Made by a program: the position numbers and the translations under genes. Positions 13,388 to 37,392 of a DNA stretch of 39,580 bases are shown piece by piece (the stretch's first letter is position 1; each line of letters starts with the position of its first letter). The stretch is from Myxococcota bacterium (GTDB taxonomy: Bacteria > Myxococcota_C > UBA6777). The stretch spans positions 1 through 39,580 of the forward strand of contig JAKLKB010000128.1 in NCBI GenBank assembly GCA_023150835.1. The letters run 5' to 3'. Below the pieces are notes generated by a model. The model did not search any database. It worked only from the letters and a program-made list of their open reading frames with translations, and was not told the origin of the DNA.

Positions 13388-15310
13388 TCAAGACAACCAA
13401 GCCGTTTTGCGATCCACAAAGATCCGCATCCATAGCTCGAACACCATCAACGAAAAGAGCAAATACGATCCGTCAAGACGACCTTGTCGGTCTTGTTCGA
13501 TCAGCCTGTGAACGGCGATCGGGTCGAAGGTTCCGCGTTGTTGGAGGCTTTGGAGAGACAGAACATCTTCGACCACGTCGCGCAGTTCGACTTTAAGCCA
13601 GCGGCGCATCGGGACACCAAAGCCTGTTTTGGGGCGGTAGATCACATCATGAGGGAGATAAGGCTCCATCGCACGTTTCAAGATCCACTTGCTTTGGGTG
13701 GGTGTTTGTTTGAGGTGGATCGGGAGGCTGGTCGCAAATCGGATCAGATCGGGATCGAGAAAAGGAACACGCACTTCGACACCTGTGGCCATGCTCATCT
13801 TGTCGGTGTAATTGAGGTTATGGTCTGGTAAGAAGTGCTTGCCTTCGAGATAAAGCATCTGGTTGATCGGGGGGGTGTCGGGAGGCAGTTTGGCGAGCGT
13901 GTCCATCAGCGGTGCAGAAAAAGGCAGTGCAGCGAGTTGTTTTCGGAGGGCGGGGGTGTAAAGCCCGAGGATGTGTTCGGGTGGAAGACAGTGAAAGGCC
14001 GCAGCGATGCGCTCGCGAGGAGGTTGATCGGCATATTGAAAGGCTTTTTGGACGCGGCGTCCGAGGGTGGAAAGTGTGGAGAGATGCCCTGTGTGTTGGC
14101 GCAGCAGCGTGCGCAAGGGGCGCGGGAGCCAAGCCCACGCGGGTTCATAAAAGAGGGCTTGGTGCCTGCGATACCCCGTAAAGAGATCGTCTCCCCCTGT
14201 ACCCGAGAGCAACACTTTGATCCCGTGTTGGCGGGCCATCTGGCAGAGAGCATAGACATGCAGCGGAGCAAAATCAGCTTGCGGCTCGTCAAGGTGATAG
14301 ATCATTTTTTCGAGGTGTTGGGTCATCTCGGGGCCGACATACAGGGTATGCAGATCGATATCGAACGTCTTGGCGACCCGTTGGGCATAAGGCAGATCGT
14401 CCACACGCCCTTCGCCTTGGGGGTTGGCCTCCCCTTGAAAGCCGATACTGAAGCACTTTCTTTGCGGTTCGTATGCCACCCGCTGCGCCAAAGCCACAAG
14501 GCTGCTCGAATCCAGACCACCCGAAAGGAACGCACCGACGGGAACATCCGAGACCAGTTGCCGTTCGACCGCGAGCGTCAAGTGACTTTGGAGCGCTTGG
14601 ATGGCGTCTTCTTCGGAGATCGGTCGGATCGGTTGATCGTAGGGCAGATCGTAATAGGCGGATGTTTCGAGACGATGGCTTGCATCGAGCCACATCAAAT
14701 GGCCGGGCGGTAGCTTTTTGACCGATTGGAGGATGGTATCGGGATGAGGACTCCATTGGTAAGTCAAGTGCGCATGAAGGCTCGGCAAGTGTAGGCTGCG
14801 ATCCACTTCTGGATGACACAACAAAGACTTGAGCTCGCTTGCAAACAAGACGCCTTGCTTGGTCTTCGCGTAATAGAGCGGCTTGACCCCCACCCCATCG
14901 CGTGCCAACAGCATCTTTCTTTTGGTGCGATCCCAGATCGCAAAGGCGTAGATCCCGTTGAGTTGGGCCAACATCTTTTCACCGTCACGACAATACAGTT
15001 GAAGCAACACTTCTGTATCGGAATGACCGCGAAAAGCATACCCGTCCTGCTCTAGCGAGCGCCGAAGCTGGCGAAAGTTGTAGATCTCGCCGTTGAAGAC
15101 GATCACCACACGCTTGTCGTCTGTAAACATCGGCTGGTGGCCGAGTTCAGACAGATCGATGATCGACAACCGCTGATGCCCCAGCCCCACTTGTTCTTCT
15201 GCTTGGTAGTAAAGCCCCGTATCATCGGGGCCGCGATGTTGAATCCGTTCGTTCATTCGCCGAAGCAGCTCTTCTGAAAAATCCCCAAAAAACCCGACAA
15301 ATCCGCACAT
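13388..15310 (-). CDS. asnB: Asparagine synthase (glutamine-hydrolysing)
   Basis: Predicted 640 aa from ATG 15310. This start places Cys2 (MCGFVGFFGD) as the N-terminal nucleophile of the glutaminase domain. The frame is open for another 92 codons upstream, but those are encoded by repeat B and are not part of the enzyme. The Ntn domain has RGPDDTG, NGEIYNF and the R/D motif ARDGVGVKPLYY. The synthetase domain has the PP-loop FLSGGLDSSSLVAL near residue 265 and SGTGGDDLFTGY. It converts aspartate, glutamine and ATP to asparagine in the cytoplasm. Enzymes of this subgroup (about 640 aa) are often linked with polysaccharide gene sets; here only a GT4 gene is within 7 kb. Confidence 0.95.
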   Translation of the reverse strand: MCGFVGFFGDFSEELLRRMNERIQHRGPDDTGLYYQAEEQVGLGHQRLSIIDLSELGHQPMFTDDKRVVIVFNGEIYNFRQLRRSLEQDGYAFRGHSDTEVLLQLYCRDGEKMLAQLNGIYAFAIWDRTKRKMLLARDGVGVKPLYYAKTKQGVLFASELKSLLCHPEVDRSLHLPSLHAHLTYQWSPHPDTILQSVKKLPPGHLMWLDASHRLETSAYYDLPYDQPIRPISEEDAIQALQSHLTLAVERQLVSDVPVGAFLSGGLDSSSLVALAQRVAYEPQRKCFSIGFQGEANPQGEGRVDDLPYAQRVAKTFDIDLHTLYVGPEMTQHLEKMIYHLDEPQADFAPLHVYALCQMARQHGIKVLLSGTGGDDLFTGYRRHQALFYEPAWAWLPRPLRTLLRQHTGHLSTLSTLGRRVQKAFQYADQPPRERIAAAFHCLPPEHILGLYTPALRKQLAALPFSAPLMDTLAKLPPDTPPINQMLYLEGKHFLPDHNLNYTDKMSMATGVEVRVPFLDPDLIRFATSLPIHLKQTPTQSKWILKRAMEPYLPHDVIYRPKTGFGVPMRRWLKVELRDVVEDVLSLQSLQQRGTFDPIAVHRLIEQDRQGRLDGSYLLFSLMVFELWMRIFVDRKTAWLS

Positions 15311-15356
15311 CACTCTGCCTTCTGTTTGGACGAACCCGTTTGCCTCGTATGCCGCG

Positions 15357-15602
15357 AACACTGTACGATATCCGAAAGATGTGTACACGAAGGGTAGGTG
15401 CGATCCGCTGTAACTGCCCTGTCCTTGGGCAGCCATAGGGTGCTGCCCCCAACGTTTTATACGATATCCGAGTGGTGTGTGATCGAAGGAGAGCGCGTAG
15501 ACGCCCTGTTCTCGGGCAGCCACAGGGTGCTGCCCCAACATCTTTACGATCACGCAATGGACGGATTTCGTATTACGATTACGCAATGGGCGGATTTCGT
15601 AT
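15357..15602 (-). repeat. Dispersed repeat B, tandem 2.5 copies
   Basis: Read on the minus strand: a 29-nt start fragment (15602-15573), a full copy (15572 to about 15453), and a copy lacking its first 35 nt (to 15357). The full copy has TACGAAATCCGTCC, TGATCGTAAAGATGT, GGGGCAGCACCC, ACAGGGCGTCTACGC and GATATCGTATAAA in the same order as copy 1. The tandem copies lie between the NHL gene's stop and the asnB start, in the same orientation as both genes. The rest of this gap (15603-15734) shows no gene. Confidence 0.85.
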
Positions 15603-15734
15603 CGCTCTCGTTGCAGGCCGCGATCACGGACGAGAGCCGATCACCTACGCCGAGCCACCAAGGGCAACATATACAGGACTTCTTGCGGGTCGTCACACAA
15701 TTTTGTCGGCGAGAACGAAACGGCGAGAGGAGGG

Positions 15735-18700
15735 CTAACGAAAGATGCGGCGGATGTTGTGGTTTTCGCGGTCGCCGATGTACAAAAGGCCGGACGCATC
15801 GATGGCGATGCCAAAAGGGTCGTTGAATTGGGCTTGGCTCAACGGTCCGTCTTGGAAGCCGGCATCGCCCGTTCCTGCGAGGGTTGTCACTTTGCCTGTG
15901 GGATCGATCTGGCGGATACGCTGGTTGTTTTGATCGACGACAAACAAGTTTCCTTGCGCATCAAGGACAACAGAAGCGGGTCGATCGAACTCTGCTTGCA
16001 AGGCTGCACCGTCGCTGTACCCGCTGTTTCCTGTGCCTGCGACAGTCGATACGATGCCTTGGGCGTCGATGCGGCGGATACGGTGGTTTCCGCGATCTGC
16101 GATGTACAAGTTACCCACGCTGTCGAAGGCGAGGCCGTAAGGTTCGTTGAATCGGGCGGTTGTGGTGGGTCCGTCTTGGTATCCTTGGCTGCCTGTTCCT
16201 GCAAAGGTCGTCACGTTTCCTTGTGGGTCGATACGGCGGATGACGTGGTTTTCGCTGTCGGCGACGTAGAGGTGATCTTGCTTGTCTACGGTCAGACCGT
16301 AAGGGGTGTTGAACTTGGCGATTCCACCCAATCCATCGGCAAGTCCTGCAAGGGCTTGTCCTGCGAAGGTGGTGACAACGCCTTGGGCGTCGATACGGCG
16401 GATGCGGTGGTTGTCGCGGTCAGAGACAAAGATCACGCCTTGACTGTTGAGGACAAGGCTGTGGGGGCTATCGAATTGAGCGGTTTTTGAAGGGCCGTCC
16501 AAGAAGCCCGCGATGCCTGTTCCTGCGACAGTCGAGATATCGCCGTTGGGTGTAAGCTTTCGGATGGCGTGGTTGTCTTCGTCGGCGATCAACAGGTGGC
16601 CCTGCCGATCAAAAGCAAGCCCTGACGGCGCATTCAGCAAAGCCTCGCTGCGCGAGCCGTCGGCAAAGCCTTCGGTTTTTCCACCTGCCGAAGTGCGCAT
16701 CTGCTGTTGCGTATCGAGCGTTCGCAGTAGGCGATTGGCGGTATCGGCGATCCACAAGTCGCCCTTTGCATCGACGAGGATCGCGGTGGGGGCGTTGAGT
16801 GTGGCGGTGGGCGCAGGGCCATCTTGCGCTCCTGCAAGGCCCGTCCCTGCGAGCGTGGTTACGTTGCCTTGGGGGTCGATGCGGCGGATGCGATGAGCGC
16901 CTTCGGTGATGTAGAAGTTGTTGTTGGCGTCGAGGGTAATGCCGGTGGGTCGGTCGAATTGGGCTTGTGCAGCGGGGCCATCTTTGTGTCCGCGTGTACC
17001 GTCTCCTGCGAAGGTGCTGACTTGGCCTGTGGGGGTGATCTTGCGGATCTGTTGGTTGTTGTAGTCTGCGACGTAGACGTTGCCGTTTTTGTCGAGCGCA
17101 AGGTCTTGCGGTGTATCAAAGCGGGCTTGGGAGCCTGCGCCGTTGACAAGGCCACGTCGCGAACCTGCGAGCGTGGTCACGTTGCCTTGGGGGTCGATCT
17201 TGCGGATGCGGTGGTTGTCGCGATCTGCAACGAAGAGAACGCCGTTGGCATCGAGGCGTAGGCCGTAGGGTTCATCAAATTGGGCTTGTTTGGCCGGACC
17301 ATCCGCAAAACCTGCGCGGCCTGTTCCTGCGACGTCGACGACACGGCCTTGTGTATCGATCTTGCGGATCAGGTCGTTGCCACGTTCTGCAAAGTACACT
17401 TCGCCGTTTGGAGCGACCGCAACCCCCGAAGGTTCGTCGAGTTCGGCTTTTGAGGACGGGCCGTTGGTATAACCCGCTTTGCTATTTCCTGCGATGGTCG
17501 TGACGTTCCCCAATAGATCGAGCTTTCGGATGCGATGATTCCCGCGATCCGCGATGTACAAGTTGCCGTTTTTGTCGAGCGATAGCGCGATCGGTCCCGC
17601 AAATCGGGCATAACGCGCCTCTCCATCCCGCCAAGGCGCTTGCCCCGCAAAGGTTTCGACCACAGGGCGTTCGGCGCATTGGCCGTTTACGCAGACTTGA
17701 TCGCGGATACAGGCTTGTTGGCATTGGCTGCAATGGGCTTCGTCGCTGAGTAGATCGACGCACTTTTCGTTGCAACGGCGCTGTCCGAGCGGGCAATTGG
17801 AGGGGACACACACGCTATCTTGGCAGTACGTTGTCGGAGAACAGGCTTTGTCACAAGCTCCGCAATGTTTGTCGCTGCTTTTGAGATCGACGCAAAACTC
17901 CCCACAGCGCTGGGTTTCAGCGGGGCATTTGTCTGTGCAAAGCCCTTCGGCGCAGCGTTGGTTGCGGGGACAAACCAGATCGCATTGGCCGCAGTGGCGA
18001 AGATCCGTTTGGGAGTCCACACACGCCCCGCTGCATCGCAATCTTCCCGAACCACACACGCACTTTCCACCCTCGCAGCGCTCGTCGGGCGCACAGGCTT
18101 TTCCGCATCCTCCGCAATGTAGCGCGTCGGTTTGAAAGTTCACACATCCCCCCAGACACACTTCGGGCGTGGCTGACGGACAACTTGCGACGCAACCCGC
18201 GCTGGAGCAAAGCTGCCCGCTTTCACAGGATTTTTGGCATCCTCCGCAGGATTGTTGATTCGAGCGCAGATCGACGCAAGCTCCGCTACATTCGGTCAAA
18301 CCTTGCGCACATTGGCAACGCCCCTGAGCGCAGGTTTGCCCCGCTGCACAGGCTTTTCCGCATCCTCCACAATGTTGCGCATTGTTTTGTTCATCGACAC
18401 ACCCGCCCAAACACACCGTAGGCGTGGCCTCTGGACAGGCCGCAACACACGCACCTTTGGCGCAAAGCTGCCCTTGCCCACAAGCGCTTCCACACGACCC
18501 ACAATGCTGACCATGAGCTTGCAAATCGACGCAAGCACCGCTACAAGCCGTCAATCGGGGCGCACAAGCGAGTTCGCACCGTCCCTGTTGACAGCGTTTG
18601 CCCTCTCCACAAACCACCCCGCAAGCTCCGCAGTGTTGCGCATCTGCTTGGGGATCGACACAGCTTTCCGCGCATTTGAGCTTTGGAGCGGCGCAAGAGA

Positions 18701-23954: not shown

Positions 23955-24434
23955 TCAAGGCTCGGCCTCCCATGCGTCGTCCCAGACAAGCGCCCAGACA
24001 GCGGGCTGCAAGAAGACCGTTCGGCTGGCATTCAAGTGCGGGCGATGCCAACGCACACGGATACGTCCGTCGGCCAGTTGATCGAACCAGTGGTGTGTTT
24101 GGGGGTGTTGGAGATCGCTGCGCAAGCGTTCGACGATCTTGGCCGTCCGACGGAGGCTTTGGTGGTGCGGATCATCGAATAGTGAAAAATGCTTATTGCG
24201 GCTGCATGGGGAAAACAACAGGCTTTTGAGAAATTCGAGATCTTCTTCGGACACGCTGACCTCCTTTATGGTGCTTGTGCGCCGTCGCGATCGGGTCGGT
24301 TCGGATGGTTGTTGCGACACCCACTCGATAGCCCGCTCCGATCGGCGGCATAGAAACCTTCGCGATCGACTCCGTTTGGGTAGATGGTGCGACGGTGGGG
24401 AGGTTGGCGTGAGAGGGAAAGGGCTGTGTGCCAT
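23955..24434 (-). CDS. Hypothetical protein
   Basis: Predicted 159 aa from ATG 24434. The last two thirds look like real coding sequence: IKEVSVSEEDLEFLKSLLF, SLFDDPHHQSLRRTAKIVE, then FDQLADGRIRVRWHRPHLN and PAVWALVWDDAWEAEP. The first 50 residues are Pro/Ser/Arg-rich and may be untranslated, with the true start further in. An overlapping frame from GTG 24516 has a signal-like N-terminus (LAPVNSFFLAIWSLH), so a frameshift between the two could have split an exported protein. No family was recognised. Confidence 0.45.
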   Translation of the reverse strand: MAHSPFPLTPTSPPSHHLPKRSRSRRFLCRRSERAIEWVSQQPSEPTRSRRRTSTIKEVSVSEEDLEFLKSLLFSPCSRNKHFSLFDDPHHQSLRRTAKIVERLRSDLQHPQTHHWFDQLADGRIRVRWHRPHLNASRTVFLQPAVWALVWDDAWEAEP

Positions 24435-24561
24435 CGCTGTATTGTATGTGTAAGCTCCAGATCGCTAGAAAAAAAGAGTTGACAGGTGCAAGCGTGCTGG
24501 CTATCGTCAGACGCACAAACGAATAAAGCCTATTCTACTCACCAAATCGGCGGAAAAAACG

Positions 24562-25236
24562 ATGCTCAATCTCTACTTGATCAGCTTGATCGCAGGCGGC
24601 GCATTGATTCTGGTCTCTGTGTTGTTTGGTGGCGACTCGGACTCTGATGTCGAAGCACACGGAGACTTGGATGTGCAAGGCGATCTGGACGTACACGCAG
24701 ATGTGGACGTGCATGGCGAGGTGGGACATGGCGAGGTGAGTATCGCAACGGAAAGTGGCGTGGCTTCGGAGCTTTGGCTACCTTTCTTTTCGCTGCGGTT
24801 TTGGATCTTTTTTGCGGCGTTTTTTGGGATGACAGGGACGCTGCTGTCTTTGTTGACAACGACCAACCCGCTGCTGGCGGGGTTGTTGTCGGGTGGAGTG
24901 GGATTTGTGTCAGGCTCTGCGATGGCGTGGGCGATCCACTTCATCCAAAAGCGCGATGTGTCAAGCGGGATCGCAGCTTCGGAATATCTGGGCCAATCGT
25001 GCGAAGTGCTGTTGCCGCTCGAAGCGGGTGAGTTGGGCAAGATCCGCGTGACCATACACGGCACACAGATCGAGCTGACAGCCCAAACCGAAGAAGAACG
25101 ACCGTTGGAACGCGGTGAAAAAGCCTTTGTGATCGGCTACGCGGACGGTGTAGCCCGAATTGTCCGCCATTTCAAAGAACTTGACGAGGCCACCCGCCCC
25201 GCTCTTCCATCGCACCCTCCCACCCAACGAAAATAA
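24562..25236 (+). CDS. NfeD-like membrane protein
   Basis: Predicted 224 aa. An N-terminal helix (LYLISLIAGGALILVSVLF) is followed by a hydrophilic loop of near-repeats (DLDVQGDLDVHADVDVHGEV, residues about 33-60), two or three helices (about 78-130), and an OB-like beta domain (GQSCEVLLPLEAGELGKIRV and GEKAFVIGYADGVARIVRH). This is the short NfeD layout (YuaF/YqiJ-like) that pairs with flotillins. It should sit in the inner membrane and help organise flotillin assemblies. Two flotillin genes follow downstream on the same strand. The Asp/His/Val loop repeat is unusual. Confidence 0.8.
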   Translation: MLNLYLISLIAGGALILVSVLFGGDSDSDVEAHGDLDVQGDLDVHADVDVHGEVGHGEVSIATESGVASELWLPFFSLRFWIFFAAFFGMTGTLLSLLTTTNPLLAGLLSGGVGFVSGSAMAWAIHFIQKRDVSSGIAASEYLGQSCEVLLPLEAGELGKIRVTIHGTQIELTAQTEEERPLERGEKAFVIGYADGVARIVRHFKELDEATRPALPSHPPTQRK

Positions 25237-25242
25237 AACGAC

Positions 25243-25294
25243 GATGCGGATCGGACGATGCGGATCGGACGATGCGGATCGGACAATGCGGATG
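25243..25294 (+). repeat. 14-bp tandem repeat, 3.7 copies
   Basis: GATGCGGATCGGAC is repeated from 25243, 25257 and 25271, with a partial variant at 25285. It lies 7 nt after the NfeD-like stop in the 283-nt gap before the first flotillin. The rest of the gap has no gene. Confidence 0.9.
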
Positions 25295-25519
25295 CTTTCT
25301 TGTGGACGTATCGTTGCTTTCTTTTGTGATCTTGGCTGTGTTGTTTCGGTACTGTTGTTTTGATCTGACGTGGCGGCAGCTTTCCATCGAAAGGCTCGCC
25401 CACGCAGCGCATCCCGTCCACAGGCAGCGATAGGCGCGGTCTGTGGCACAAAGCATTCAGTCCAAAGAGATCTCCTGCGTTTTGTACGCGGGTGGTTTCG
25501 CCATCTTGGAGGTTTGTTG

Positions 25520-26836
25520 ATGAACCCTTCGCTGTTCTCTTTCGCCACAACCATCGATCCCACGCTTGTGTTGAGCGTTTCGGGTGGGATCGTTGCGTTC
25601 ATCCTTGTGCTGATCGTCATCGCAAAGATGTTTTTGATCGTCTGCCCTCCCAACCGTGTGATGGTCGTGAGCGGTCGCTCGGACAAGACCTCGGGCGGAA
25701 AGAAAGGTTATCGCAAAGCGATCGGTGGGCTTGTCTTTCGCATCCCCATCCTCGAACAAGTCGCACAGATGGACCTAACCACCATCCCGATCCACATCTC
25801 TGTACGCAACGCCTACTCCAAAGGCGGGATCGCCCTTCACGTCGAAGCTGTCGCCAACATCAAGATCAACTCGGATACCGTGATGATCAACAACGCGATC
25901 GAACGGTTTTTGGGCCAAGATCCCGGAGAACTCCGTCGTGCCGCCCAAGACACCCTCGAAGGAAACCTCCGCGAAGTCCTTGCGCGACTCACTCCCGAAG
26001 AAGTCAACGAAGATCGGCTTAGCTTTGCCAACGAACTGTCTAGCCTCGCCGAAGAAGATCTGAACAAACTCGGACTTCATCTCGATACCCTCAAGATCCA
26101 ACACGTCTCGGATAGCAACAATTATCTCGACTCCATCGGTCGCCAAGGGATCGCCTTGATCTTGCGCGATGCCGAGATCGCCGAATCCAACGCCCGCCGC
26201 GAAGCCGAAAATGTCGCGGCTGAAAAACGCGCCCAAGCCCAAGTCGTCAAAGAAAACACCGAAGCTGAGATCGCCAAGCGCCGAAACGAGCTCCGCCAAT
26301 TCAAAGCGGACCTCGAAGCCAAGGCCAAGGCCGAAGAAGAAAAAACCATCGCCGCAGCCAAAGAAGCCCGCGCCAAAGCCGAACAAGAACTCCAACAGAT
26401 CCGAGCGCAACTCGAGTCCTTGCGCTTGCAAGCCGACAAGGTCATCCCCGCAGAAGCCACCCGCCAAGCTCGGGAGATGCAAGCGAAAGCGGCTGCCGCT
26501 CCGATCGAAGAAAACGGAAAGGCCCTTGCTTCGGCCCTAAACAAGATCTCCGACGCATGGGTCCAAGCAGGCCCCCAAGCCCGCGATATCTTCTTGATCC
26601 AACAGCTTGAAAAGCTCCTTGAGATCGTCGTTTCCACCGTCAACAATATGCAGATCGGCCACGTTCACCTCATCGATAACGGCGATGGCAAGGCCATTCC
26701 CAACTATGTCCAGTCCTTCCCGTCCACCGTCACCGCGATCATGCGCTCGCTTTATGACTCGATCGGTGTGGATGTTCCTTCGATCTTGCGCGGTGAACAA
26801 CAACGCCTCACCCAACATGACGAAAAATCCGCTTAA
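25520..26836 (+). CDS. Flotillin-like SPFH protein 1
   Basis: Predicted 438 aa. ATG 25520 follows TTGGAGG (25506-25512); the longer in-frame start at 25370 has no support. One membrane helix (about 14-41) is followed directly by VCPPNRVMVVSGR, a hallmark of flotillins. The SPFH/Band 7 domain has NAYSKGGIALHVEAVANIKI and ALRRAAQDTLEGNLRE-type motifs, with TPEEVNEDRLSF. A long Ala/Glu/Lys coiled coil covers about 215-325. Flotillins assemble into large rings or cages that mark membrane microdomains. It is 58 nt before a second flotillin gene, and the two share the NAYSKGGI, TLEGNLR, TPEEVNED and YLDSIGR motifs. Confidence 0.9.
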   Translation: MNPSLFSFATTIDPTLVLSVSGGIVAFILVLIVIAKMFLIVCPPNRVMVVSGRSDKTSGGKKGYRKAIGGLVFRIPILEQVAQMDLTTIPIHISVRNAYSKGGIALHVEAVANIKINSDTVMINNAIERFLGQDPGELRRAAQDTLEGNLREVLARLTPEEVNEDRLSFANELSSLAEEDLNKLGLHLDTLKIQHVSDSNNYLDSIGRQGIALILRDAEIAESNARREAENVAAEKRAQAQVVKENTEAEIAKRRNELRQFKADLEAKAKAEEEKTIAAAKEARAKAEQELQQIRAQLESLRLQADKVIPAEATRQAREMQAKAAAAPIEENGKALASALNKISDAWVQAGPQARDIFLIQQLEKLLEIVVSTVNNMQIGHVHLIDNGDGKAIPNYVQSFPSTVTAIMRSLYDSIGVDVPSILRGEQQRLTQHDEKSA

Positions 26837-26894
26837 CCCCAAACGATGTTAACCTTTGCTTCCAAAAGACGAGGCATAATCCTAGAGGTGATCG

Positions 26895-28193
26895 ATGAGT
26901 CCTATCGCTGTGCTGATCTTGGTGTTGGCCGTTTCTGCGGCCTGCACCGTCTTGGTGATCAAGAATCTTTTGCACGTCTGCCCCCCCAACAAAGTGCTGA
27001 TCTTTTCAGGCTCCCAAACCGCCATCGAAACCACCGACAACAAGGGCCAAAGAAGCCGAAAGGTTGTGGGATACCGTTTGGTTTACGGGGGTCGGGCTTT
27101 GCGCCGCCCGCTGATCGAACGCGTCGATGATCTTGAACTCACCAACATGGTGATCCCGCTCTCGATCAAAAACGCTTACTCCAAAGGCGGAATCCCCCTT
27201 CAGATCGAAGCCGTTGCAAACGTCAAGGTGTCTTCGACAGAGCCGATTATCCACAACGCGGTCGAGCGTCTGCTCGGAAAGTCGCGCACCCAGATCATGC
27301 AGATCGCCAAAGAAACGCTCGAAGGAAACTTGCGCGGCGTGATGGCGACCATGACCCCCGAAGAAGTCAACGAAGACAAGATCAGCTTTCAAAAGAAGCT
27401 GCTCGCCGAAGCCGCCAAAGACCTCCGTGACCTCGGGCTGAACCTCGACACCCTCAACATCCAAAACATCTCCGATGAGCGCGGTTATCTGGACTCCATC
27501 GGGCGCAAACAATCCGCCGAGATCCAAAAACGCGCCATGATCGCAGAAGCCGAAAGCAAGGCCGCTTCCGAGATCCGCTCCGCCGAAAACCAACGCGATG
27601 TCGAGATGGCCCGCATCCAAGCCTCCACCGATATGGCCCGTGCCGAAGCCAACCGCCGTATCATCGACGCCGAAACCCGCCGTCTCGCCGTGATCGCCGA
27701 ACAACAATCCGAAGTCATCTCCGCCATCGCCAAAGCAACCGCCGAGTTGGCCGTCCAAAACGCACGCATCGAACAAGTCCGACGACAGCTTGAAGCCGAC
27801 GTGATCGAGCCCGCCAAAGCCTCTCTCAAGGCCGCCGTCGAAGACGCCATCGGTAAAGCCGCCAAGATCATCGAAGATGGCGCAGCCACCGCTGGCGCAC
27901 TTCAAGCCGTCACTCAAACATGGAGCAAAGCAGGCAAAAATGCTCGCGATATCTTCTTGCTCCAAAAAGTCGATGTCTTGATGCAGCGCGTCCTCGAAAC
28001 CGTTCATGACGTGCGCATCGACCAAGTGACTGTCCTACCCGCCTCCACAGGCGGCAGCACAAACCAAGAAACCCCTCTCGCCACCCGCCTCGTCTCCGCC
28101 TCCGAGCAAATCAAAGCCGCCCTCGGCATCGATATCGCCAAACTTCTCCAACCCAACAGCAAAAAAGACGACGCCGCTCCCTACGGTAGTTGA
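26895..28193 (+). CDS. Flotillin-like SPFH protein 2
   Basis: Predicted 432 aa. AGAGGTG lies 4 nt before ATG 26895. A membrane helix (about 4-23) is followed by VCPPNKVLIFSGS, then an SPFH core with NAYSKGGIPLQIEAVANVKV, KETLEGNLRGVMATMTPEE and NLDTLNIQNISD, and a coiled coil rich in AEA and RR (about 205-320). It is a clear paralog of flotillin 1. Two different flotillins could form mixed assemblies with the NfeD-like protein, as eukaryotic flotillin-1 and -2 do. Repeat B fragment and a palindrome lie downstream, possibly with the end of transcription. Confidence 0.9.
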   Translation: MSPIAVLILVLAVSAACTVLVIKNLLHVCPPNKVLIFSGSQTAIETTDNKGQRSRKVVGYRLVYGGRALRRPLIERVDDLELTNMVIPLSIKNAYSKGGIPLQIEAVANVKVSSTEPIIHNAVERLLGKSRTQIMQIAKETLEGNLRGVMATMTPEEVNEDKISFQKKLLAEAAKDLRDLGLNLDTLNIQNISDERGYLDSIGRKQSAEIQKRAMIAEAESKAASEIRSAENQRDVEMARIQASTDMARAEANRRIIDAETRRLAVIAEQQSEVISAIAKATAELAVQNARIEQVRRQLEADVIEPAKASLKAAVEDAIGKAAKIIEDGAATAGALQAVTQTWSKAGKNARDIFLLQKVDVLMQRVLETVHDVRIDQVTVLPASTGGSTNQETPLATRLVSASEQIKAALGIDIAKLLQPNSKKDDAAPYGS

Positions 28194-28230
28194 TCCCCTC
28201 CTTCAACCGTAGCCCCCTCCCCCCATCTCC

Positions 28231-28283
28231 TACGAGATCCGCCGAATGTGTGATCGCATGATGCAGGGCGGTTCGCGAACCGC
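28231..28283 (+). repeat. Repeat B fragment and 16-bp perfect palindrome
   Basis: TACGAGATCCGCCGAATGTG at 28231 matches the start of repeat B. It is cut off near 28263 and followed by GCGGTTCGCGAACCGC (28268-28283), a perfect palindrome absent from the other copies. It lies 38 nt after the flotillin 2 stop, the same relation to a stop codon as copy 1. A terminator or protein-binding role is possible. Confidence 0.6.
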
Positions 28284-28346
28284 ACCTACAACGGGTTGAT
28301 TCTTCACGCTTTCCCTTTTCTACTGCGTCACTCCTGTTCTGTTTTG

Positions 28347-28511
28347 CTTGGGTTTGTTGCTAAGCAAGCTATCGACCGCGCTGGGATCGGCAAGCGTCGA
28401 TGTATCGCCAAGGCTGCTGAGTTCGTTGGCGGCGATCTTGCGCAAGATCCGACGCATGATCTTTCCTGAGCGCGTCTTGGGCAGCGCTTCGGCTGGATAG
28501 ATCACATTGGG
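28347..28511 (-). pseudogene. acs: Duplicated 3' end of acs (fragment)
   Basis: 165 bp nearly identical (about 93 percent by hand count, 11 differences) to the end of the complete acs gene at 33788-33952, in the same orientation. It encodes [20 protein letters not shown] through LLSNKPK. Similarity stops at the last sense codon: this copy reads on for eight codons (QNRTGVTQ) to TAG at 28320. The upstream coding part is missing. With the intact gene it forms direct repeats around the three-gene cassette. The central 90 or so bp are identical. Confidence 0.92.
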
Positions 28512-28795
28512 TATTTATAGAATTTTTCTTCATATTTTATTCATTAAAAAGCAATCATTCTATGAAAAAACGACCATTCTTTTATCGCCAAACAAGCAAG
28601 ATTTTTATTCTTTTCTATTGACAACACTTCCTCTTTTTTGTAGACCCCAAACAGACGGAAAAGTATTGCGTTCTTCTCGAACAACACCATCGCGCAGCCA
28701 AAGCAATACTTCCTCTTCAACCGTTCGCTCAAACACCTCATCATCGCTCGAACATCTTCTTGACGCACTTCGCCTTCAACGCACGAGGTTATTCG
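28506..28795 (+). promoter_or_regulatory. AT-rich leader with candidate promoter and inverted repeat
   Basis: About 130 bp after the acs fragment are much richer in A and T than the surroundings. TTGACA (28618-28623), a 17-nt spacer and TAGACC (28641-28646) form a plausible but weak sigma-70-type promoter. Downstream, AAGTATTGC (28661-28669) and GCAATACTT (28703-28711) form a 9-bp inverted repeat, which may be an operator or leader hairpin before the start at 28796. Confidence 0.35.
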
Positions 28796-31700
28796 ATGAA
28801 CCTGCGCCCCCTGCTTTCCTCCTTTGTCCAAGAAACAAAAAGAAAAAGAACACCCAACATCTTGTTTTTATTGTTTTTTTTCACACTCAGCACACCCGTA
28901 ACGTGGGCATTAGACTACGCAAACAATCCCGTGTCCGCAACATATGCTCAAACGTGGGATTACACTCCTACACTCACCGGCCTTTACACATTCGAAACGG
29001 AGATCCAAAACCCAACAGGAGACACTGTACTTTATGTGAAAGGTGGCAACGTATCCGTTTTCAACGACGACTGCCACATGGACATCAACAACGTCTGCCC
29101 GTCTGTCGGACAAAACAGCATTCGTCGTTCCAAGCTTAAAGTCCAACTCGCTGCAGGCACAACCTACAAGATCATCGTCGTTGCGTTCGTTACATTCGGT
29201 GAGATCGCGTCGCGAGTGCGTTTCCACGGTACAGCTCATTTGAAAGCCACCAACCATAGCATCTGGGTAGAAACCATCTTTGGAGGGCACTTTGCTTACA
29301 CCTATCTCATGACAAACATGCCTTTCGGTGGCGATATGATCAACGTTCAAGACAACGAGCCAAACCTCCATCTCTACGCGAGCACAAGTGGTCGCCCCAA
29401 GGCCATTCAAACGTGGCAACCTATTCTCTTGATGGGCGTCAAATGTGATCGTTCCATGAACGGCTTGAGCACGGGCTACACTGGGGTAGGTTGGCATTCT
29501 GCGTTGTCCACAGTCGGTAGTTGTGGGATCTACGTAGCGAGTCCGCACGTATTTTCGTTGATCTACGGCTACGACCTTCCCGAAACAGTACTCAACGTGA
29601 TGCTCAACGATGCGTTCCATCCCGATTCCGATCACGATCAAGACTACCTCGGAATTCGGCTCGAACAGAGCCTAGGCACATGTGATCGAGACAGCCAAGT
29701 CCTTGTCGCCCGCCCTCAAAATCCCCCCGACATCCGTTGCGGGGACACCGTCACGAACCCCAACAACCAACAAGTGCGGCGCATCTACAATTTTCAAGAC
29801 TCCGACTGCGATGGCATCCCAGATCTACACGAAGTTTACGGGATCTCTGCCTACTTCGGTGGCTCTGTGCAATTGCTTGATCTTTCGGCTTTGGGTGCCT
29901 CGCCCTCCAGAAAAGATCTATTTTTGGAGATAGACGAATCCAACGGTGGTGTCCCCTTAAACGGTTGGCCTGCGGTGATCCGCTCTTTGCACCAATCCCT
30001 CAAAGACGCTCCATCGGGTGACGTCGTCAATGCACGCCCAGATATCTCGGGGATCCGCGTACACGCAGATATCGGTATCGCTCCCGAAAATACGGAGGAC
30101 GACAACCTGCAGATCTACAACGATTGGGGCGGACACCAATTCTTTTCCGCTCCCAATCCACTCCCCGTTGGGCATCCGTCAGTCGGCCAAGAACCACACA
30201 AGATCACCGAGCAGATCGGTCGTGCGATGATGGCAGAACTCCGTCAAGGTGTGTTTCGTTACATCCACGCGGTCCGCGATCCAACAATTCTAGGCTGCGA
30301 AGCCACCGCTCCTGTCGGTCGTTGGCACATCAACTTGCGCTATGGAAGCAACGAAACAGACGCAGCGGTTTGCCAGCGCAAGCTGCTCAAAGCCATCGGG
30401 CACAGCATGGGACTCACAGAGTTCGGGCACCTCCGTTGGGGTTCCGCACCCGGCAACCCCCATTATCGAAGCGTCATGAACCCCGTCGCCCGACAAGTGA
30501 ACCAGTTTTCCACGGTTCCCCCCAACCATCAAGTCACCGGCAACGCGCCCAATTTTACGCCGCTCAGTCCAAGAGACGCAACAAAACACGATCCGTTGGG
30601 AAGCGACATCGATCACAGTTTCCTTGCAAATGAACCGTTTCAACTTCCTTATTCGTTCACCCCCACTCCTCTACCCGGAAATACACATAAAAATACGGTT
30701 GAATGGGGATTTGAATCTGCTTTTTTCAGATTGACACACCCCGTGACTTTGTCGCAGATTCGGACGGATTTCGCACTTGTGAACAAACAAGATCTACAGG
30801 TGGTCTCTGGCGAATCAACAACACCCACGTTGCTGTTGGTCGAAAAGAAATCACCCCTAGAGACGATTATCGGGCGGCCTGATTCGCGAATGTACCTCTT
30901 CTATACCCACCAAGAATCAGGACAAAACAAAGTCTTTTATCGATTCGCAAAAACAGGAGTGAACATCGTTGTCGATCTGAGCGCTCCAAGCCCAAGACCC
31001 AACCAAATCTCCTGCCCCGGTGGAGACAAGATCCTGCGCATGGGTAATAACCTTGTCGAAGAACCCGCGAATGAGTGTACGGTGTGGTCGCCTCCTATCC
31101 CGATCATCGGCACGGAGGGGGCAAAGAGTGTTACGGCTGTTTTTCTCCGAGAGATCGGAAACGACTTGATCGAACAATTTCTCATCGCTTACATCGACGC
31201 AAACAACCGCTTGATGTTCAGGCGCTCAACCTTTGTCAACTTCGACAACACCGCACAGAACGGACTCCCTCCCGGTCACGTCGCGTGGGACGAAACACCC
31301 GGTGGATGGAAATCCGTTGACAACAACGTTATCGGCGAACCGCACTTGCTCTTGACCGGCCTTGCGCAATCCCCGCCCAGCGGAGGCTACGAAGCAGTCA
31401 ATTTCCAAAACTACCATCTATCCGAAAGTGTAGAATTGTTTTACCGAAGAACCGACAAAATCTTTCGACAGCTTTCTTTGGTGAGAAATACTCCTGCGGA
31501 CTGGACTTGGACCGCCAGCGGCGGGTTCATCGTCACCGACCAAGCAACAGGCAGCCCCCTGACCGGCGAGATCGACGCCACACCGCTGTGGTGGTGGGGA
31601 GCCACCACAAACCAAACGGAATTGTGTGCAGCCTTCCCAGACACCAACCACAACGGAAAAGGCTACAAGGTTCACTTTTACTGCAAAGACGGAAACGCAT

Positions 31701-32269
31701 GGATTGATCGCACGCTCCATGCGTTTGGAGGCGAATCCCCAGATATACGAACCAACAGAAAAGTGGGCCTCACCACGCGCACAGCGCGGTTCGGCGGACT
31801 CAACGAGGCGGGATCCCCCATTTTTTTTGGTAGTAATTCTAACAATGTTGTAGGCAGCCATCTGTGGCTTGTCGTGCAAAACAATACTGATGCACCGCTC
31901 CTTTATTTATCGGGAGCGACGTTTAACAGGCCTTCCAACACAAACGCCCCCCTCTTCAAAAACACCTCTTTTCCTTACGGCTACATAGGGACTATGTTGG
32001 CTGGCCAAAGTGGCGTGTTTTTGCTCGATCATCCTCAACTGATCACAATGCGTGCAGCGACGATCCTCCCCAGCGAAACAGGGCCGATGCTCACGTTCCT
32101 ACCTTTCGCTGACGGAACGTACGACGCTGTCTTCACCACCGACAGCGACTTCAAGGTGATGGCGCGTGGTCTTTGCTTAGGAACAAAGAGCGGAGATCGC
32201 GATCCCCTTGTCGCGGGAAACCCCGAAGCAGCGTGCGGAACCATCGCGCAAAGCGTGTGGGGGTACTGA
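28796..32269 (+). CDS. Secreted degenerate zinc-metalloprotease-like protein
   Basis: Predicted 1157 aa; GAGG precedes ATG 28796 by 7 nt. A long signal peptide ends near PVTWA. An N-terminal beta-rich domain is followed by a Ca-binding-like segment DSDCDGIPDLHEVYG (about residue 335) and DLFLEIDESNGG, as in a group of myxobacterial secreted metalloproteases. The expected HExxHxxGLxH motif is replaced by KAIGHSMGLTE (His536 keeps one ligand; His and Glu before it are Lys and Ala), while the downstream SVMN turn (559-562) is kept. So it is probably catalytically dead. The C-terminal half has repeated Trp-rich, propeller-like strands. Likely a secreted binding or structural protein. First gene of a coupled three-gene unit. 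Confidence 0.8.
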   Translation: MNLRPLLSSFVQETKRKRTPNILFLLFFFTLSTPVTWALDYANNPVSATYAQTWDYTPTLTGLYTFETEIQNPTGDTVLYVKGGNVSVFNDDCHMDINNVCPSVGQNSIRRSKLKVQLAAGTTYKIIVVAFVTFGEIASRVRFHGTAHLKATNHSIWVETIFGGHFAYTYLMTNMPFGGDMINVQDNEPNLHLYASTSGRPKAIQTWQPILLMGVKCDRSMNGLSTGYTGVGWHSALSTVGSCGIYVASPHVFSLIYGYDLPETVLNVMLNDAFHPDSDHDQDYLGIRLEQSLGTCDRDSQVLVARPQNPPDIRCGDTVTNPNNQQVRRIYNFQDSDCDGIPDLHEVYGISAYFGGSVQLLDLSALGASPSRKDLFLEIDESNGGVPLNGWPAVIRSLHQSLKDAPSGDVVNARPDISGIRVHADIGIAPENTEDDNLQIYNDWGGHQFFSAPNPLPVGHPSVGQEPHKITEQIGRAMMAELRQGVFRYIHAVRDPTILGCEATAPVGRWHINLRYGSNETDAAVCQRKLLKAIGHSMGLTEFGHLRWGSAPGNPHYRSVMNPVARQVNQFSTVPPNHQVTGNAPNFTPLSPRDATKHDPLGSDIDHSFLANEPFQLPYSFTPTPLPGNTHKNTVEWGFESAFFRLTHPVTLSQIRTDFALVNKQDLQVVSGESTTPTLLLVEKKSPLETIIGRPDSRMYLFYTHQESGQNKVFYRFAKTGVNIVVDLSAPSPRPNQISCPGGDKILRMGNNLVEEPANECTVWSPPIPIIGTEGAKSVTAVFLREIGNDLIEQFLIAYIDANNRLMFRRSTFVNFDNTAQNGLPPGHVAWDETPGGWKSVDNNVIGEPHLLLTGLAQSPPSGGYEAVNFQNYHLSESVELFYRRTDKIFRQLSLVRNTPADWTWTASGGFIVTDQATGSPLTGEIDATPLWWWGATTNQTELCAAFPDTNHNGKGYKVHFYCKDGNAWIDRTLHAFGGESPDIRTNRKVGLTTRTARFGGLNEAGSPIFFGSNSNNVVGSHLWLVVQNNTDAPLLYLSGATFNRPSNTNAPLFKNTSFPYGYIGTMLAGQSGVFLLDHPQLITMRAATILPSETGPMLTFLPFADGTYDAVFTTDSDFKVMARGLCLGTKSGDRDPLVAGNPEAACGTIAQSVWGY

Positions 32270-32271
32270 TC

Positions 32272-33330
32272 GTGAGGCGTTCCTCTTCACAAAAAAACAA
32301 TCCGCGCTCCCATCTTCGGGGCCTCATCTCGCTGTTCTTGATGTTGCTTCTTTTGGCAAATTGCGAATGTTCACGAGCACTTCCTTGGCCTTGGGCTTAC
32401 AACGACGACATCATCCCCGGCACGGACGATGCTGGAACTTGCAAGAGAGCAACACATCTGGACTCTTTGCCCTACGAGTTCGGTCCAGACATCGGACCGA
32501 CTACGTTTTCGGACATCGATGCGAAAGGCTGCTACAACGAATGTGATAGTGAGTTCAGTCGAATTTTCTGCCACGATGGCGGTCTTTACGAAGTAAGCGG
32601 GCTAGTCTCGCCTTGCGGCTACCCCTGCCTTCTCGGACCTCTGGCAATAAGCAATGTCTGCCGAAAAGGATGCCGCAAAGACTGCCACGACAAGATCTAC
32701 AGCTATGACCGGCTCAAACAAAAAGAAGCTAGTTATTTGAAAATCGTACAAAGCGCTTGCGAAGAACACCGCCAGAAATATCCGTATGAACGATGTTCCA
32801 CAGACGAAGAATGCTCTCCCGGCCTTTCCAAAGTAGACGATACCACCCACAACGTGACAAACTACTACCTTCGTTGCGATCCCGCACAAAAACGTTGCGT
32901 AGAGCGCCCTCCTACCGAAGTCCACGACTTCAACCAAGTCTGCGGTCAAGAACTCGACGGGATGTACAAACCCTTTGTCGATGCGGCTTTTGCTACCTAT
33001 GTAGCTGTGCGAGCCAAACATTGCTCCAAAGGGTACTGTTACGTTTGGGCCAACGACCTCAAAGGAAAGACACCTTGCTTGTACCAAGGCTGTACGACCC
33101 CTTGCGTCAATCACGAAGACTGCCCACAAAACGCTCGTTGCGTCGAGATCAACTCCGTCCCCGATGATCTCGAAAAACTACGCACCACCACTGCCGTCTC
33201 AAAAAGCAAGGCATTCGTCTGTATGCCCGGTTATTACTTGCCTTACAAGCTCAAATTCGGCTACGACCTCTTGACATACGCAGAGAAATTCTCCGTCCCC
33301 TGCGTCCCTCCGAAAGGAAGCACTCGATGA
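32272..33330 (+). CDS. Cys-rich lipoprotein of the cassette
   Basis: Predicted 352 aa from GTG 32272, only 2 nt after the preceding stop, so translation is coupled; longer starts would lie inside the previous gene. The signal peptide ends in lipobox LLLANC. The mature part has about 30 cysteines, including CYNECDSEF, VCRKGCRKDCHDK, CSTDEECSPG and TPCVNHEDCPQNARC. No known domain was recognised, although the CxxDxDC-like pairs occur in myxobacterial Cys-rich lipoproteins. It probably sits at the outer or inner membrane with the protease-like protein. Its last 4 nt overlap the next gene (ATGA). Confidence 0.82.
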   Translation: MRRSSSQKNNPRSHLRGLISLFLMLLLLANCECSRALPWPWAYNDDIIPGTDDAGTCKRATHLDSLPYEFGPDIGPTTFSDIDAKGCYNECDSEFSRIFCHDGGLYEVSGLVSPCGYPCLLGPLAISNVCRKGCRKDCHDKIYSYDRLKQKEASYLKIVQSACEEHRQKYPYERCSTDEECSPGLSKVDDTTHNVTNYYLRCDPAQKRCVERPPTEVHDFNQVCGQELDGMYKPFVDAAFATYVAVRAKHCSKGYCYVWANDLKGKTPCLYQGCTTPCVNHEDCPQNARCVEINSVPDDLEKLRTTTAVSKSKAFVCMPGYYLPYKLKFGYDLLTYAEKFSVPCVPPKGSTR

Positions 33331-33776
33331 AACAGTCTCTTCTTCTTGCATCCTTCGTTTTGTTGTCCACAACGGCTTGCGACACATCCAACAAGACAGG
33401 GTCGCCTCTCGCAACGCAACAGCAACACCTCACCAAGACACCACCCGCATCCCAACGGAAAATCGGCGTGTTTCCGCTGGCCAACTCCCCCCAAGCCAAA
33501 GCATGGTTTGAACGCAAAAGTGCCGAAGAACGCAACAAGTTATTGCTCGCTCACCCCCAACGTGGACAGGCCAACCAGCCCAGCCCCCTCACACAAACCC
33601 ACCCCACCCAAACCCCGTACCTCCAACGCAAACAGCGCATCGATCAACGCTATCTCTTGAAGATCCAAGAACTTCGCCAAATCTACGCAAACGATCCTGC
33701 CGACTACACCAAACAAGCGATGGAGTGGAAAGAACGCATCCTCAAGGAAGAAATGGCCAAGCCTGTCAACCCCTAA
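33327..33776 (+). CDS. Small lipoprotein of the cassette
   Basis: Predicted 149 aa, starting at the ATG of an ATGA overlap with the previous gene. Type II signal peptide with lipobox STTAC. The mature protein is hydrophilic: a Thr/Gln/Pro-rich linker, then a helical C-terminal part (YLQRKQRIDQRYLLKIQELR and later KQAMEWKERILKEEM). No cysteine beyond the lipidation site and no recognised domain. It ends only 8 nt before the acs stop region, at the right boundary of the cassette. Co-expression with the two genes before it is strongly implied. Confidence 0.8.
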   Translation: MKQSLLLASFVLLSTTACDTSNKTGSPLATQQQHLTKTPPASQRKIGVFPLANSPQAKAWFERKSAEERNKLLLAHPQRGQANQPSPLTQTHPTQTPYLQRKQRIDQRYLLKIQELRQIYANDPADYTKQAMEWKERILKEEMAKPVNP

Positions 33777-33784
33777 AACAGCGC

Positions 33785-35743
33785 TCACTTGGGTTTGTTG
33801 CTGAGCAAGCTATCGACCACGCTCGGATCGGCAAGCGTCGATGTATCGCCAAGGCTGCTGAGTTCGTTGGCGGCGATCTTGCGCAAGATCCGACGCATGA
33901 TCTTTCCTGAGCGGGTTTTGGGCAACGCTTCGGCGGGGTGGATCACGTCGGGAGTGGCGAGCGCGCCGATCACGTTGCGGACGTGGTTTTTTACGTCTTT
34001 GATCAGCGCCTCATCCACCGCAACGCCCGGCAATGGCGTGATGTACGCATAGATGCCTTGCCCTTTGATATCGTGCGGATACCCGACCACAGCGCTTTCG
34101 ACGATCTTGTCGTGGCTGTTGATCGCGTCTTCGATCTCGGCGGTGCCGATGCGATGGCCCGAAACGTTGATCACATCATCCACACGCCCAGTAATCCGAT
34201 AGTATCCATCTTCATCTCGGATACACCCGTCTCCCGTAAAGTACATACCCGAAAACATCGAGAAATACGTCTGTTTGAAGCGTTCGTGATCGCCGTACAC
34301 CGTACGCATGATCCCCGGCCAAGGCTCCAACATCGTCAAGATCCCTTCGCAAGGGCCATCGAGGATCTGGCCTTTTTCGTCCACGATCGCGGGCTTTACA
34401 CCAAAAAATGGCAACGTCGCTTTGGTCGGTTTCGTCGCAATCGCCCCCGGCAAGGGCGAGATCATAATCCCCCCTGTTTCTGTCTGCCACCATGTATCGA
34501 CGATCGGGCATCGTTCATGCCCGACCACTTCGTGATACCACAGCCACGCTTCGTGGTTGATCGGCTCGCCGACCGTCCCCAACAAGCGCAAGCTGCTCAG
34601 ATCATGCTTTTGCACAAAGCTGTTTCCAAATCGCTCCAGCGCCCGAATCGCCGTCGGTGCGGTGTAAAAGATCGAGACTTTGTATTTGTCCACCACTTCC
34701 CAAAAGCGCCCAGCATCGGGGTAAGTCGGGATGCCTTCAAACATCAACGTCGTTGCGGCGTTGCACATCGGCCCGTAAATAATATAGCTGTGGCCCGTCA
34801 CCCATCCGATATCCGCCGTACACCAATAGATATCCTCGGGCTTGTAATCAAAGACATATTTGAAAGTTGTCGCGGCATAGACCATATAGCCGCCTGTCGT
34901 GTGCAACACGCCTTTGGGCTTGCCCGTAGAGCCCGATGTATACAGAATAAACAGCGGATCTTCGGCATCCACCCACACAGGCTCGCAGACCTCTTCGGCA
35001 CTCGCCATCAGCTCATGCCACCAACGATCGCGCCCTTCGACCATATCGACCTTGACTTGGCCCTTGGTACGGTCTGCAACGATACAAAGACGCACCGAAT
35101 GGCCCTTCTTTTGGCAGATCCCAAGCGCGTCATCCGTGGTTTGTTTCAACGGGATCGGCTTGTTTCCGCGTATGCTTCCATCGGCGGTAATCACCACATC
35201 GCTGGCCGCGTCAAGGATGCGATCCGAGAGCGAATCAGCGGAGAATCCGCCAAAGACGATGGTATGAACCGCGCCGATCCGCGCACAAGCAAGCATCGCA
35301 AACGCAAGTTCGGGGATCATCGGCATATAGATCGCGACCCGATCGCCCTTTTTGACACCTTGGGCCTTGAGGACGTTGGCAAAACGGGAGACCTCGCGCA
35401 GCACTTCGTTGTAAGTGAAGCGCTTGTCTTCGCCGGGTTCGTTGCCTTCCCACAAGATCGCGATCTTGTCGCCATATCCGCGTGCGATCTGTGCATCGAG
35501 CGCGTTATAACAAAGGTTGGTCTTCCCACCCACAAACCATTGGATATCGATCTTGTCCGTAAAGTCGTACGAACGCACCTTCGTCCAAGGCGCTTGCCAA
35601 TGGAATCCTTGGGCGATCTCTGCCCAAAAACCGTCGGGATCTTGGATCGAGCGGTCGTACATCGTGCGGTAGGCTTCGAGGGACTTGACATGGGCTTGTT
35701 TGCTGAATGCTTCTGAGGGCGGATAGAGCTTGTCTTCGAGCAT
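33785..35743 (-). CDS. acs: Acetyl-CoA synthetase
   Basis: Predicted 652 aa, the normal length. ATG 35743 is preceded by AAGGAGG with a 7-nt gap. Motifs: [57 protein letters not shown] and the acetylation-site motif [15 protein letters not shown], whose lysine is modified in homologues to switch the enzyme off. It activates acetate to acetyl-CoA through acetyl-AMP in the cytoplasm. Its 3' 165 bp are duplicated at 28347-28511. The stop lies 8 nt from the cassette's last stop (convergent). Divergent from the NtrC-type regulator, which might control it. Confidence 0.97.
33788..33952 (-). repeat. Right direct repeat (acs 3' end)
   Basis: Functional copy of the 165-bp repeat whose partner is at 28347-28511. 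Both repeats have the same orientation, with 5.3 kb between them. The match begins at the codon before the acs stop and ends inside the motif preceding [11 protein letters not shown], about 54 codons in. No integrase or transposase lies between the repeats. Confidence 0.92.
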
Positions 35744-35781
35744 CGGTGGGCCTCCTTGGTTCGTTGGAAAAGGGCGTAAAC

Positions 35782-35809
35782 AGGTTAGCCAACCACCCGC
35801 CACTGTCAA
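35782..35809 (-). promoter_or_regulatory. Candidate acs promoter
   Basis: On the minus strand, TTGACA (35809-35804), a 16-nt spacer and TAACCT (35787-35782) lie about 40 nt upstream of the acs start. The -35 box is perfect and the -10 box weak (3 of 6). No sigma-54-type GG/GC pair was found in this interval. Confidence 0.35.
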
Positions 35810-35946
35810 TGCTTCGAGAAACCAAAGGCGAAGATGCGACCCGCTGCGCGGCGAGATCGCGTGGGGCTTGTCAGGAGCATGGGGGCGGTGTTATACCAAA
35901 CGGGATCATGCCTTGGATTCGCGGCATTTGCCAAAGCCCTTTTTGG

Positions 35947-37392
35947 ATGGAGATGGGTCGATTGACCACCAACGCACACCCCCCCCAACCCCAAGACAAC
36001 GCCCGCCGTCACGAGATCCTCGTCGTCGATGACGAACGTGGGATGCGTCGCGTCTTATGCGCGATGTTGGAAAAAAAAGGCTACTTTGTCCACACCGCTG
36101 CGGATGGAATTGAAGCCGTCTCGCTTTTGGCGGAGCGCCCTATCGCCGTCCTGATCACCGATATCAAGATGCCCAACATGGACGGGATGGCTCTTTTGGA
36201 TCACGTCCTTGCGCACCATCCACACATCCCCACCATCGTCATTACAGCACACGGGACCGTCGATAACGCCGTGGTTGCCCTCAAAAAAGGGGCGTTTGAT
36301 TACATCACCAAACCCTTCGATATTACTGAGATGCAGGTGATCGTTGAAAAAGCCCTACACACCCGCGAACTCAACGATCGCAACTATCATCCTGACCCCG
36401 AAGAGATCGGTCGATACGACATCATCGGTCGCTCCAAACAGATGATGGCCGTCTATGACGTGATCTCCAAAGTTGCAGACACCCCCTCCACCGTCTTGAT
36501 CACGGGCGAAAGCGGAACAGGAAAAGAACTGATCGCCCGCGCATTGCACCAACACAGCAGCCGCCGCAACAAGCCTTTTATCGCCATCAACTGCGCTGCG
36601 ATCCCGCAAAACCTGATGGAATCAGAGCTTTTCGGTCACGAAAAAGGAGCTTTCACAGGGGCGATATCTTCGCGTGCAGGGCGTTTTGAGTTGGCCCACG
36701 AAGGAACCCTTTTTCTCGATGAGATCGGCGAGATCCCCGTCGAGATGCAAGTCAAGATGCTACGCGCCCTCCAAGAAGGCAGTTTCGAACGCGTCGGTGG
36801 CATCCAAACCATCAAAGTCGAAGTCCGTGTCGTCGCTGCCACCAATCAAAACCTCCAAGAAAAGATCAAACAAGGGACCTTCCGCGAAGACTTGTTCTAT
36901 CGATTGAACGTCGTTCCGATCCATCTGCCGCCTCTGCGCGAACGCCGTTCCGATATCCCCCTGTTGGTTCAACACTTTATCGACAAATTCAATCTTCGCC
37001 TGCGAAAGTCCATCGAAGGGATCACCCCCGAAGCGCTGAATTCTTTGCAAGAATACCAGTGGCCGGGTAATATCCGTGAGCTTGAGAACGTGATCGAACG
37101 CTGCCTGTTGTTCGCTTCGGGCGCGCAGATCACGCTCCAAGAACTCCCCCCCGAACTCTTGCAAAGCGGTGCGCAGGGCGGCGTCTATATCCCACCCGCC
37201 ATCGCTTGCGATATGAGTATGTCTCTGCCAGAGCTTTGGAAGATCCAAAAAGAACGACTGGAACGGGAGATGTTGCGGCGTGCGCTCGATCAAACACAAG
37301 GCAACGTCACCAAAGCCGCCGATCTGCTCGGCATCAGCCGCAAAAGTATGCAAAAAAAGATGAAAGATCTAGGTCTTCGTGAACATGCTTGA
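35947..37392 (+). CDS. NtrC-type sigma-54-dependent response regulator
   Basis: About 481 aa from ATG 35947; ATG 35953, TTG 35962 and ATG 35908 are also possible, and none has a clear ribosome site. The receiver domain has the acidic pair D28-D29 and phospho-acceptor D72 ([10 protein letters not shown]), with KPFD at the end. The AAA+ domain has Walker [13 protein letters not shown], the sigma-54-contacting GAFTGA loop, Walker [11 protein letters not shown] and the [20 protein letters not shown] block. A Fis-type helix-turn-helix ([20 protein letters not shown]) ends the protein. It activates sigma-54 promoters when phosphorylated. No histidine kinase is adjacent. It is divergent from acs and followed by an outer-membrane-like gene 39 nt away, either of which may be a target. 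Confidence 0.93.

Follow-up and report, generated by a model that had tools for sequence, protein, structure and literature searches.

Organization of the acs locus

The window, a 39,580-nt stretch of contig JAKLKB010000128.1 of a Myxococcota bacterium, carries a 674-codon acs gene whose start, set at the boundary of the open reading frame, is mechanical; the true start lies probably further in. This gene and an NtrC-like regulator form the right flank of a 5,276-bp segment with three plus-strand genes, while an NfeD-like gene and two SPFH genes form its left flank. The segment is bordered on both sides by a copy of the acs 3' end (Table 1).

The three cargo genes have no match in Pfam, NCBIfam, PHROGs or PADLOC, gene 3 giving sub-threshold noise only, and an Rfam search over positions 24000-36000 returned nothing. 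Relatives of cargo gene 1 are found among four related genomes in G002 only, at a distant 24-27% identity, and none is seen in viral contigs. Cargo gene 2 has no relative in the same four genomes, and both genes are absent from the congener G001; the comparison of cargo gene 3 covered a few G002 loci. The latter gene ends 8 bp from the acs stop. Profile searches detect no integrase among the genes of the segment, as the initial annotation had read from the sequence.

Table 1. Features at the acs 3' end and in the adjoining segment (positions in the window)
Feature	Position	Strand	Basis
Right 70 bp of dispersed MITE, between SPFH gene and orphan acs end	28266..28335	+	Genome repeats
Orphan (displaced) acs 3' end, 55 codons, CAA in place of stop	28347..28511	-	Repeat comparison; mosaic versus G001
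89-bp block identical between copies; proposed crossover zone	28384..28472 (partner 33825-33913)	-	Repeat comparison
AT-rich end of inserted segment, 38% GC (flank 56%)	28512..28795		GC content
Cargo gene 1, 1157 aa, ATG 28796; mechanical ORF from TTG 28760	28796..32269	+	ORF; secreted-like N-terminus by eye
Cargo gene 2, lipoprotein-like by eye, Cys-rich, GTG 32272 start proposed	32272..33330	+	ORF
Cargo gene 3, 149 aa, lipoprotein-like by eye	33327..33776	+	ORF
Intact acs, acetate--CoA ligase (acetyl-CoA synthetase)	33785..35809	-	TIGR02188, PRK00174; 97% to G001
acs 3' end within intact gene; re-supplied end in the proposed model	33788..33952	-	Repeat comparison; TIGR02188, PRK00174

The two acs 3' ends

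The initial annotation had described 165 bp of the acs 3' end occurring in the same orientation on both sides of a 5.3-kb segment, with 11 differing positions. A direct-repeat search returns exactly this pair as the longest of the region (165 nt, 93%), and a gap-free comparison gives 154/165 identical positions and 11 mismatches at a start-to-start distance of 5441. The repeat has only two sites in the whole 7.56-Mb genome and is therefore far beyond chance. The right copy makes up the final 55 sense codons of a gene whose TIGR02188 and PRK00174 matches bear out its description as intact acs. The left copy reaches the last sense codon, where the stop is replaced by CAA and the frame continues for 8 codons to a TAG; with the 38%-GC DNA that adjoins it, this agrees with the earlier account of an orphan with a new stop followed by AT-rich DNA.

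Mismatches are unevenly distributed along the repeat, with 3 in the 37 nt beside the stop, none in the next 89 and 8 in the far 39. The identical block contains a conserved 11-residue acs codon stretch (including KIM) and a 16-bp palindrome, GATCTTGCGCAAGATC, at 28434-28449. In the far 39 nt the orphan differs from the acs of G001 at 7 positions and the intact copy at 1, while in the remaining 126 nt the two copies differ mutually at 3 positions and from G001 at 19 (orphan) and 20 (intact). Given these 5'-arm differences and the near-identity of the copies elsewhere, the orphan is a mosaic whose 5' arm looks foreign and whose remainder is close to the intact copy, the polarity being read against one congener, G001. 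The pattern fits the one expected if an incoming acs end had recombined once with the chromosomal acs, inside the identical block.

The codon changes between the two copies are 6 synonymous and 3 non-synonymous. Such mainly synonymous changes disfavour long neutral decay of the orphan, which is likely not a neutrally decayed duplicate, and fit ends that diverged as parts of a working acs. The decayed integration considered in the initial annotation accommodates the lack of an integrase.

Comparison of the full acs genes of the window genome (G000) and G001 reveals a breakpoint: divergence is 6.1% up to 85 nt before the end and 23.5% after, the break lying just past the conserved 11-residue codon stretch. 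A breakpoint of this strength was matched in 0/500 codon permutations, and the tail/body divergence ratio of 3.5 compares with a maximum of 2.3 among 406 other gene pairs, which are not independent. This jump, exceeding that of all other pairs, suggests that the acs end was probably replaced in one of the two congeners.

Recurrence of the layout in other genomes

The search for the same junction with other cargo, proposed with the initial annotation, was successful in four further genomes. Testing 81 acs loci yielded two of them, L060 and L089, both metagenome-assembled; like the window, they are draft or metagenome assemblies. In L060 (Deltaproteobacteria RIFCSPHIGHO2_01_FULL_43_49) one DUF4325 gene lies between acs and an orphan end that is 74% identical and has its own stop. 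The cargo of L089 (Methylocystis sp.) is a single frame with domains of a chromate transporter and of a superoxide dismutase, and its orphan end is 89% identical. Among 149 genomes sampled from the L089 family, G063 has a contig bearing two stacked orphan acs ends on either side of a DUF559 gene; its intact acs lies on a second contig, which may be adjacent to the first. Synonymous and non-synonymous codon changes number 20:5 in L060, 14:2 in L089 and 5:1 in G063. A class-wide sample of 385 genomes, 290 of them with a match, added G301, where a 44%-GC module holds a single gene of 164 aa and the likeness of orphan and intact ends extends 39 bp past the stop; in the same sample G239 and G442 have assembly-limited signs of this layout.

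Several other repeat matches were discarded. Those of L081, L094, L123, L066 and L112 are intergenic or just outside the coding end, in G561 the second match seems to be the first locus again on a contig that overlaps, and the second matches of G052, G081, G094, G192, G529 and G548 are full-length paralogues. On the G063 contig C149 (locus L220), near the right end, the DUF559 gene is flanked by REP-like palindromes CTCTCCCCGCATGCGGGGAGAGG and followed by HigBA-like genes (by eye). Tails of acs occur also on plasmids, two of which were inspected. Contig C1 of G219 has two full-length acs frames in the same orientation, 59 kb apart at 1048676 and 1107702; conceivably, a complete acs is carried there by a larger element.

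Site clustering and gene specificity

Five of the six resolved orphan ends start upstream of the same acs codons and no more than 50 nt from them, their homology beginning at -49, -48, -30, -15 and -1 nt relative to AARATCATGCG (codons KIM); counted from the acs end, these positions are 127-178 nt away. The sixth starts at +24, beside a repeat. Such clustering would be unexpected if starts could fall at any position of a 2-kb gene.

A control scan, treating all genes alike, covered 1,526 genes, each 200 codons or longer and followed by 3 kb of sequence, drawn from 80 acs-centred loci and 1.2 Mb of three other genomes. Orphan 3' ends were found in acs only, at L060 and L089, both of which were known before the scan. 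By our arithmetic an acs-only result has a chance of about 0.003, the set containing no more than 80 acs genes.

Search for an integrase

No integrase is present in any of the modules, whether the window segment or those of L060, L089, G063 and G301, and neither an acs-targeting integrase nor an integrase-bearing parent at acs was found among about 80 loci. Two of the 125 proteins encoded just after acs match Phage_integrase. Tyrosine-recombinase-like genes number 8 in the window genome; none is on the contig of the window, and XerC/D may be among them.

In two tubeworm endosymbionts, singled out by a motif scan, a tyrosine recombinase that is integron-integrase-like by motif lies about 1 kb after acs (L115, 12939-14345; L118, 9033-10439, with a broken frame in the latter). 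It was rejected as acs-targeting, an intact gene lying between and no acs end being duplicated. The viral contigs L176-L179 were likewise set aside as acs integrations, having a tRNA-Ser-like sequence between acs and the prophage, and the acs-containing records of Pseudomonas phage Y6 and Acinetobacter phage MD-2021a look like host DNA. The viral-class contig L174 (IMGVR_UViG_3300027870_000022) has acs followed by a DUF2971 gene, an HTH_17 gene and phage-like genes; neither integrase nor tRNA was seen on this contig, from which the other border is absent.

Origin of the segment

We favour, with a probability of about 0.6, the hypothesis that a small element without an integrase of its own integrated at the acs 3' end and re-supplied that end. 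The incoming element would carry its own acs 3' end, and an exchange in or next to a 16-residue acs codon stretch would join this end to the chromosomal acs. The gene would stay whole, now ending in the right copy, and the resident 3' end would be displaced beyond the cargo as the left, orphan copy. Support comes from the repeat with its mosaic pattern and mainly synonymous divergence, from the instances at the same codons with other cargo, one of them stacked, from the control scan, from the divergence breakpoint between congeners and from the absence of cargo genes 1 and 2 in G001. The recombinase would be site-specific and act in trans, as for cis-mobilizable elements (CIMEs) that retain att sites after losing their integrase and transfer genes; we think this most likely because of the clustered orphan starts and because genes other than acs are not hit. 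The initial annotation had also considered a mini-element that borrows the integrase of another element, and this option fits the lack of an integrase in the segment. Since the same layout is found with other cargo at the same spot in several unrelated bacteria, the acs 3' end seems to serve small mobile blocks of DNA as a docking site.

Several observations count against this model. No instance has an integrase in or beside it and no autonomous parent was found; the orphan starts vary over about 50 nt, with one at +24; close relatives provide no empty site, G001 breaking in the interval; the assembly is a draft; and the orphan has no stop, although a displaced native end should have one, an absence that a single TAA-to-CAA change would explain. 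The earlier reading as an integration is thus upheld in outline by the recurrence, the control scan and the breakpoint, while neither a recombinase nor an empty site was found. A more far-reaching proposal, which we consider quite unlikely, is that the acs 3' end is a shared docking site of integrase-less cassettes that move between unrelated bacteria and stack by means of an undescribed recombination system, either a dedicated trans-acting recombinase or a recombinase-free route exploiting the highly conserved acs codons.

The main rival is homologous recombination with an illegitimate second end. Foreign DNA bearing a relative's acs 3' end and its neighbours would enter the cell, for instance by transformation, and be incorporated by homologous or homology-facilitated illegitimate recombination with no site-specific enzyme, recombining in acs on one side and joining illegitimately in the tail of the recipient acs on the other. 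We regard this course of events as somewhat unlikely. It agrees with the lack of an integrase in every instance, with a synonymous divergence that fits a donor acs, with orphan start points that are not identical and with the end of cargo gene 3 at 8 bp from the acs stop, as if natively beside an acs. It predicts neither the clustering of these starts within about 50 nt in unrelated bacteria nor hits on acs alone. Moreover, the 5' arm of a wholly native orphan should resemble the congener, and it is the intact copy that does so instead (1 versus 7 differences).

An assembly artefact, in which two strains or two acs alleles were fused into one chimeric contig, appears very improbable. It would suit a draft genome in 239 contigs and the fact that in G001, G002, G239 and G442 contigs stop at the acs end or close to it; against this, the layout recurs at the same codons in other assemblies, the orphan lies deep inside its contig in L060 (321 kb) and G301 (186 kb), and the SPFH genes that come after the orphan are also convergent with acs in G003. 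Least credible to us is an old partial tandem duplication of acs that lost most of one copy and gained unrelated genes in between. The copies do share orientation and stand a few kb apart, but the same short 3' piece would have to persist at the same codons in unrelated genomes, the segment contains no longer acs remnant anywhere, and both the internal mosaic pattern and the mainly synonymous changes speak against it. In the four relatives we saw neither of the arrangements that the initial annotation had named as evidence against integration, namely a pair of acs ends lacking the cassette and a partially tandem-duplicated acs.

Relation to known integrative elements

In Streptococcus salivarius, the genes fda, rpmG and rpsI harbour CIMEs of 1.2-13 kb at their 3' ends (PMC7563491). 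The acs segment resembles them in having cargo and no recombination or transfer genes, in its position at the 3' end of a conserved protein gene and in that such elements are sometimes arranged in tandem (PMC7563491). It differs by its target and by the lack of a visible ICE or IME parent at acs. With att-like flanking repeats around its cargo, and no genes for recombination and transfer, it would work like a CIME. We do not file it as one because descent from an ICE or IME, and movement, belong to that definition and lie beyond the sequence layout considered here.

Islands that split and restore their target gene have been mapped by Islander and TIGER, and gene-restoring integration as a kind is well known (PMC4383910; PMC12884075). 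As in those islands, the regenerated target and the displaced fragment mark both end points: acs is restored on one side and its displaced end lies on the other, in the same orientation. Islander and TIGER islands are found through an integrase gene; the acs segment has none, and such modules would escape an integrase-anchored search. Integron gene cassettes are comparable as small, promoter-poor cargo modules able to stack in series, but the repeated unit at acs is a coding gene end, and the modules have neither an integron integrase nor an attI array. Prophage e14 and phage 21 integrate near the 3' end of a metabolic gene, icd of Escherichia coli, and supply a variant, mostly synonymous end. 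Unlike these phages, which encode their integrase, the acs segment is neither a phage nor integrase-bearing.

The target, its recurrence in several lineages and the lack of an integrase-bearing parent are new as far as searched; a search of the open-licence PMC literature turned up no paper in which acs is named as an attachment site. These data point to an integration hot spot, shared by several bacterial lineages, at the acs 3' end; the elements there would escape integrase-anchored searches, and the divergence break between congeners suggests that acs tails may pass between species. Because the layout recurs, the recombinase responsible can be sought directly and the cargo genes can be catalogued.

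Flanks and neighbouring repeats

Both flanks of the window match G001 on two contigs, each ending within the interval between acs and the SPFH genes; no empty site was recovered from this split interval of the only congener examined. In G003, of another genus, a single contig carries acs and the SPFH pair, likewise convergent and separated by about 9.6 kb that holds unrelated genes; the interval is therefore variable. On contig C126 of G001 (locus L053), 36%-GC DNA with NorC/NorB-like genes (by eye) comes right after the SPFH gene at 14800-16639, representing either another insertion in this interval or a chimeric contig.

The MITE fragment, 11 bp from the orphan copy, is probably a neighbour and not part of the element. 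The full MITE is about 116 bp long, with ends TAGGACTTACGCAGTT ... AACTGCGTAACTCCTA and a palindromic centre GGGCGGTTCGCGAACCGCCC, and exists in at least 40 copies in the window genome and in similar numbers in G001. The left half of the copy in the window is replaced by what appears to be another repeat family. Elsewhere in the window, an internal repeat (15744-15926 / 16068-16250, 75% identical) forms part of the 3' portion of a minus-strand frame of 1118 codons.
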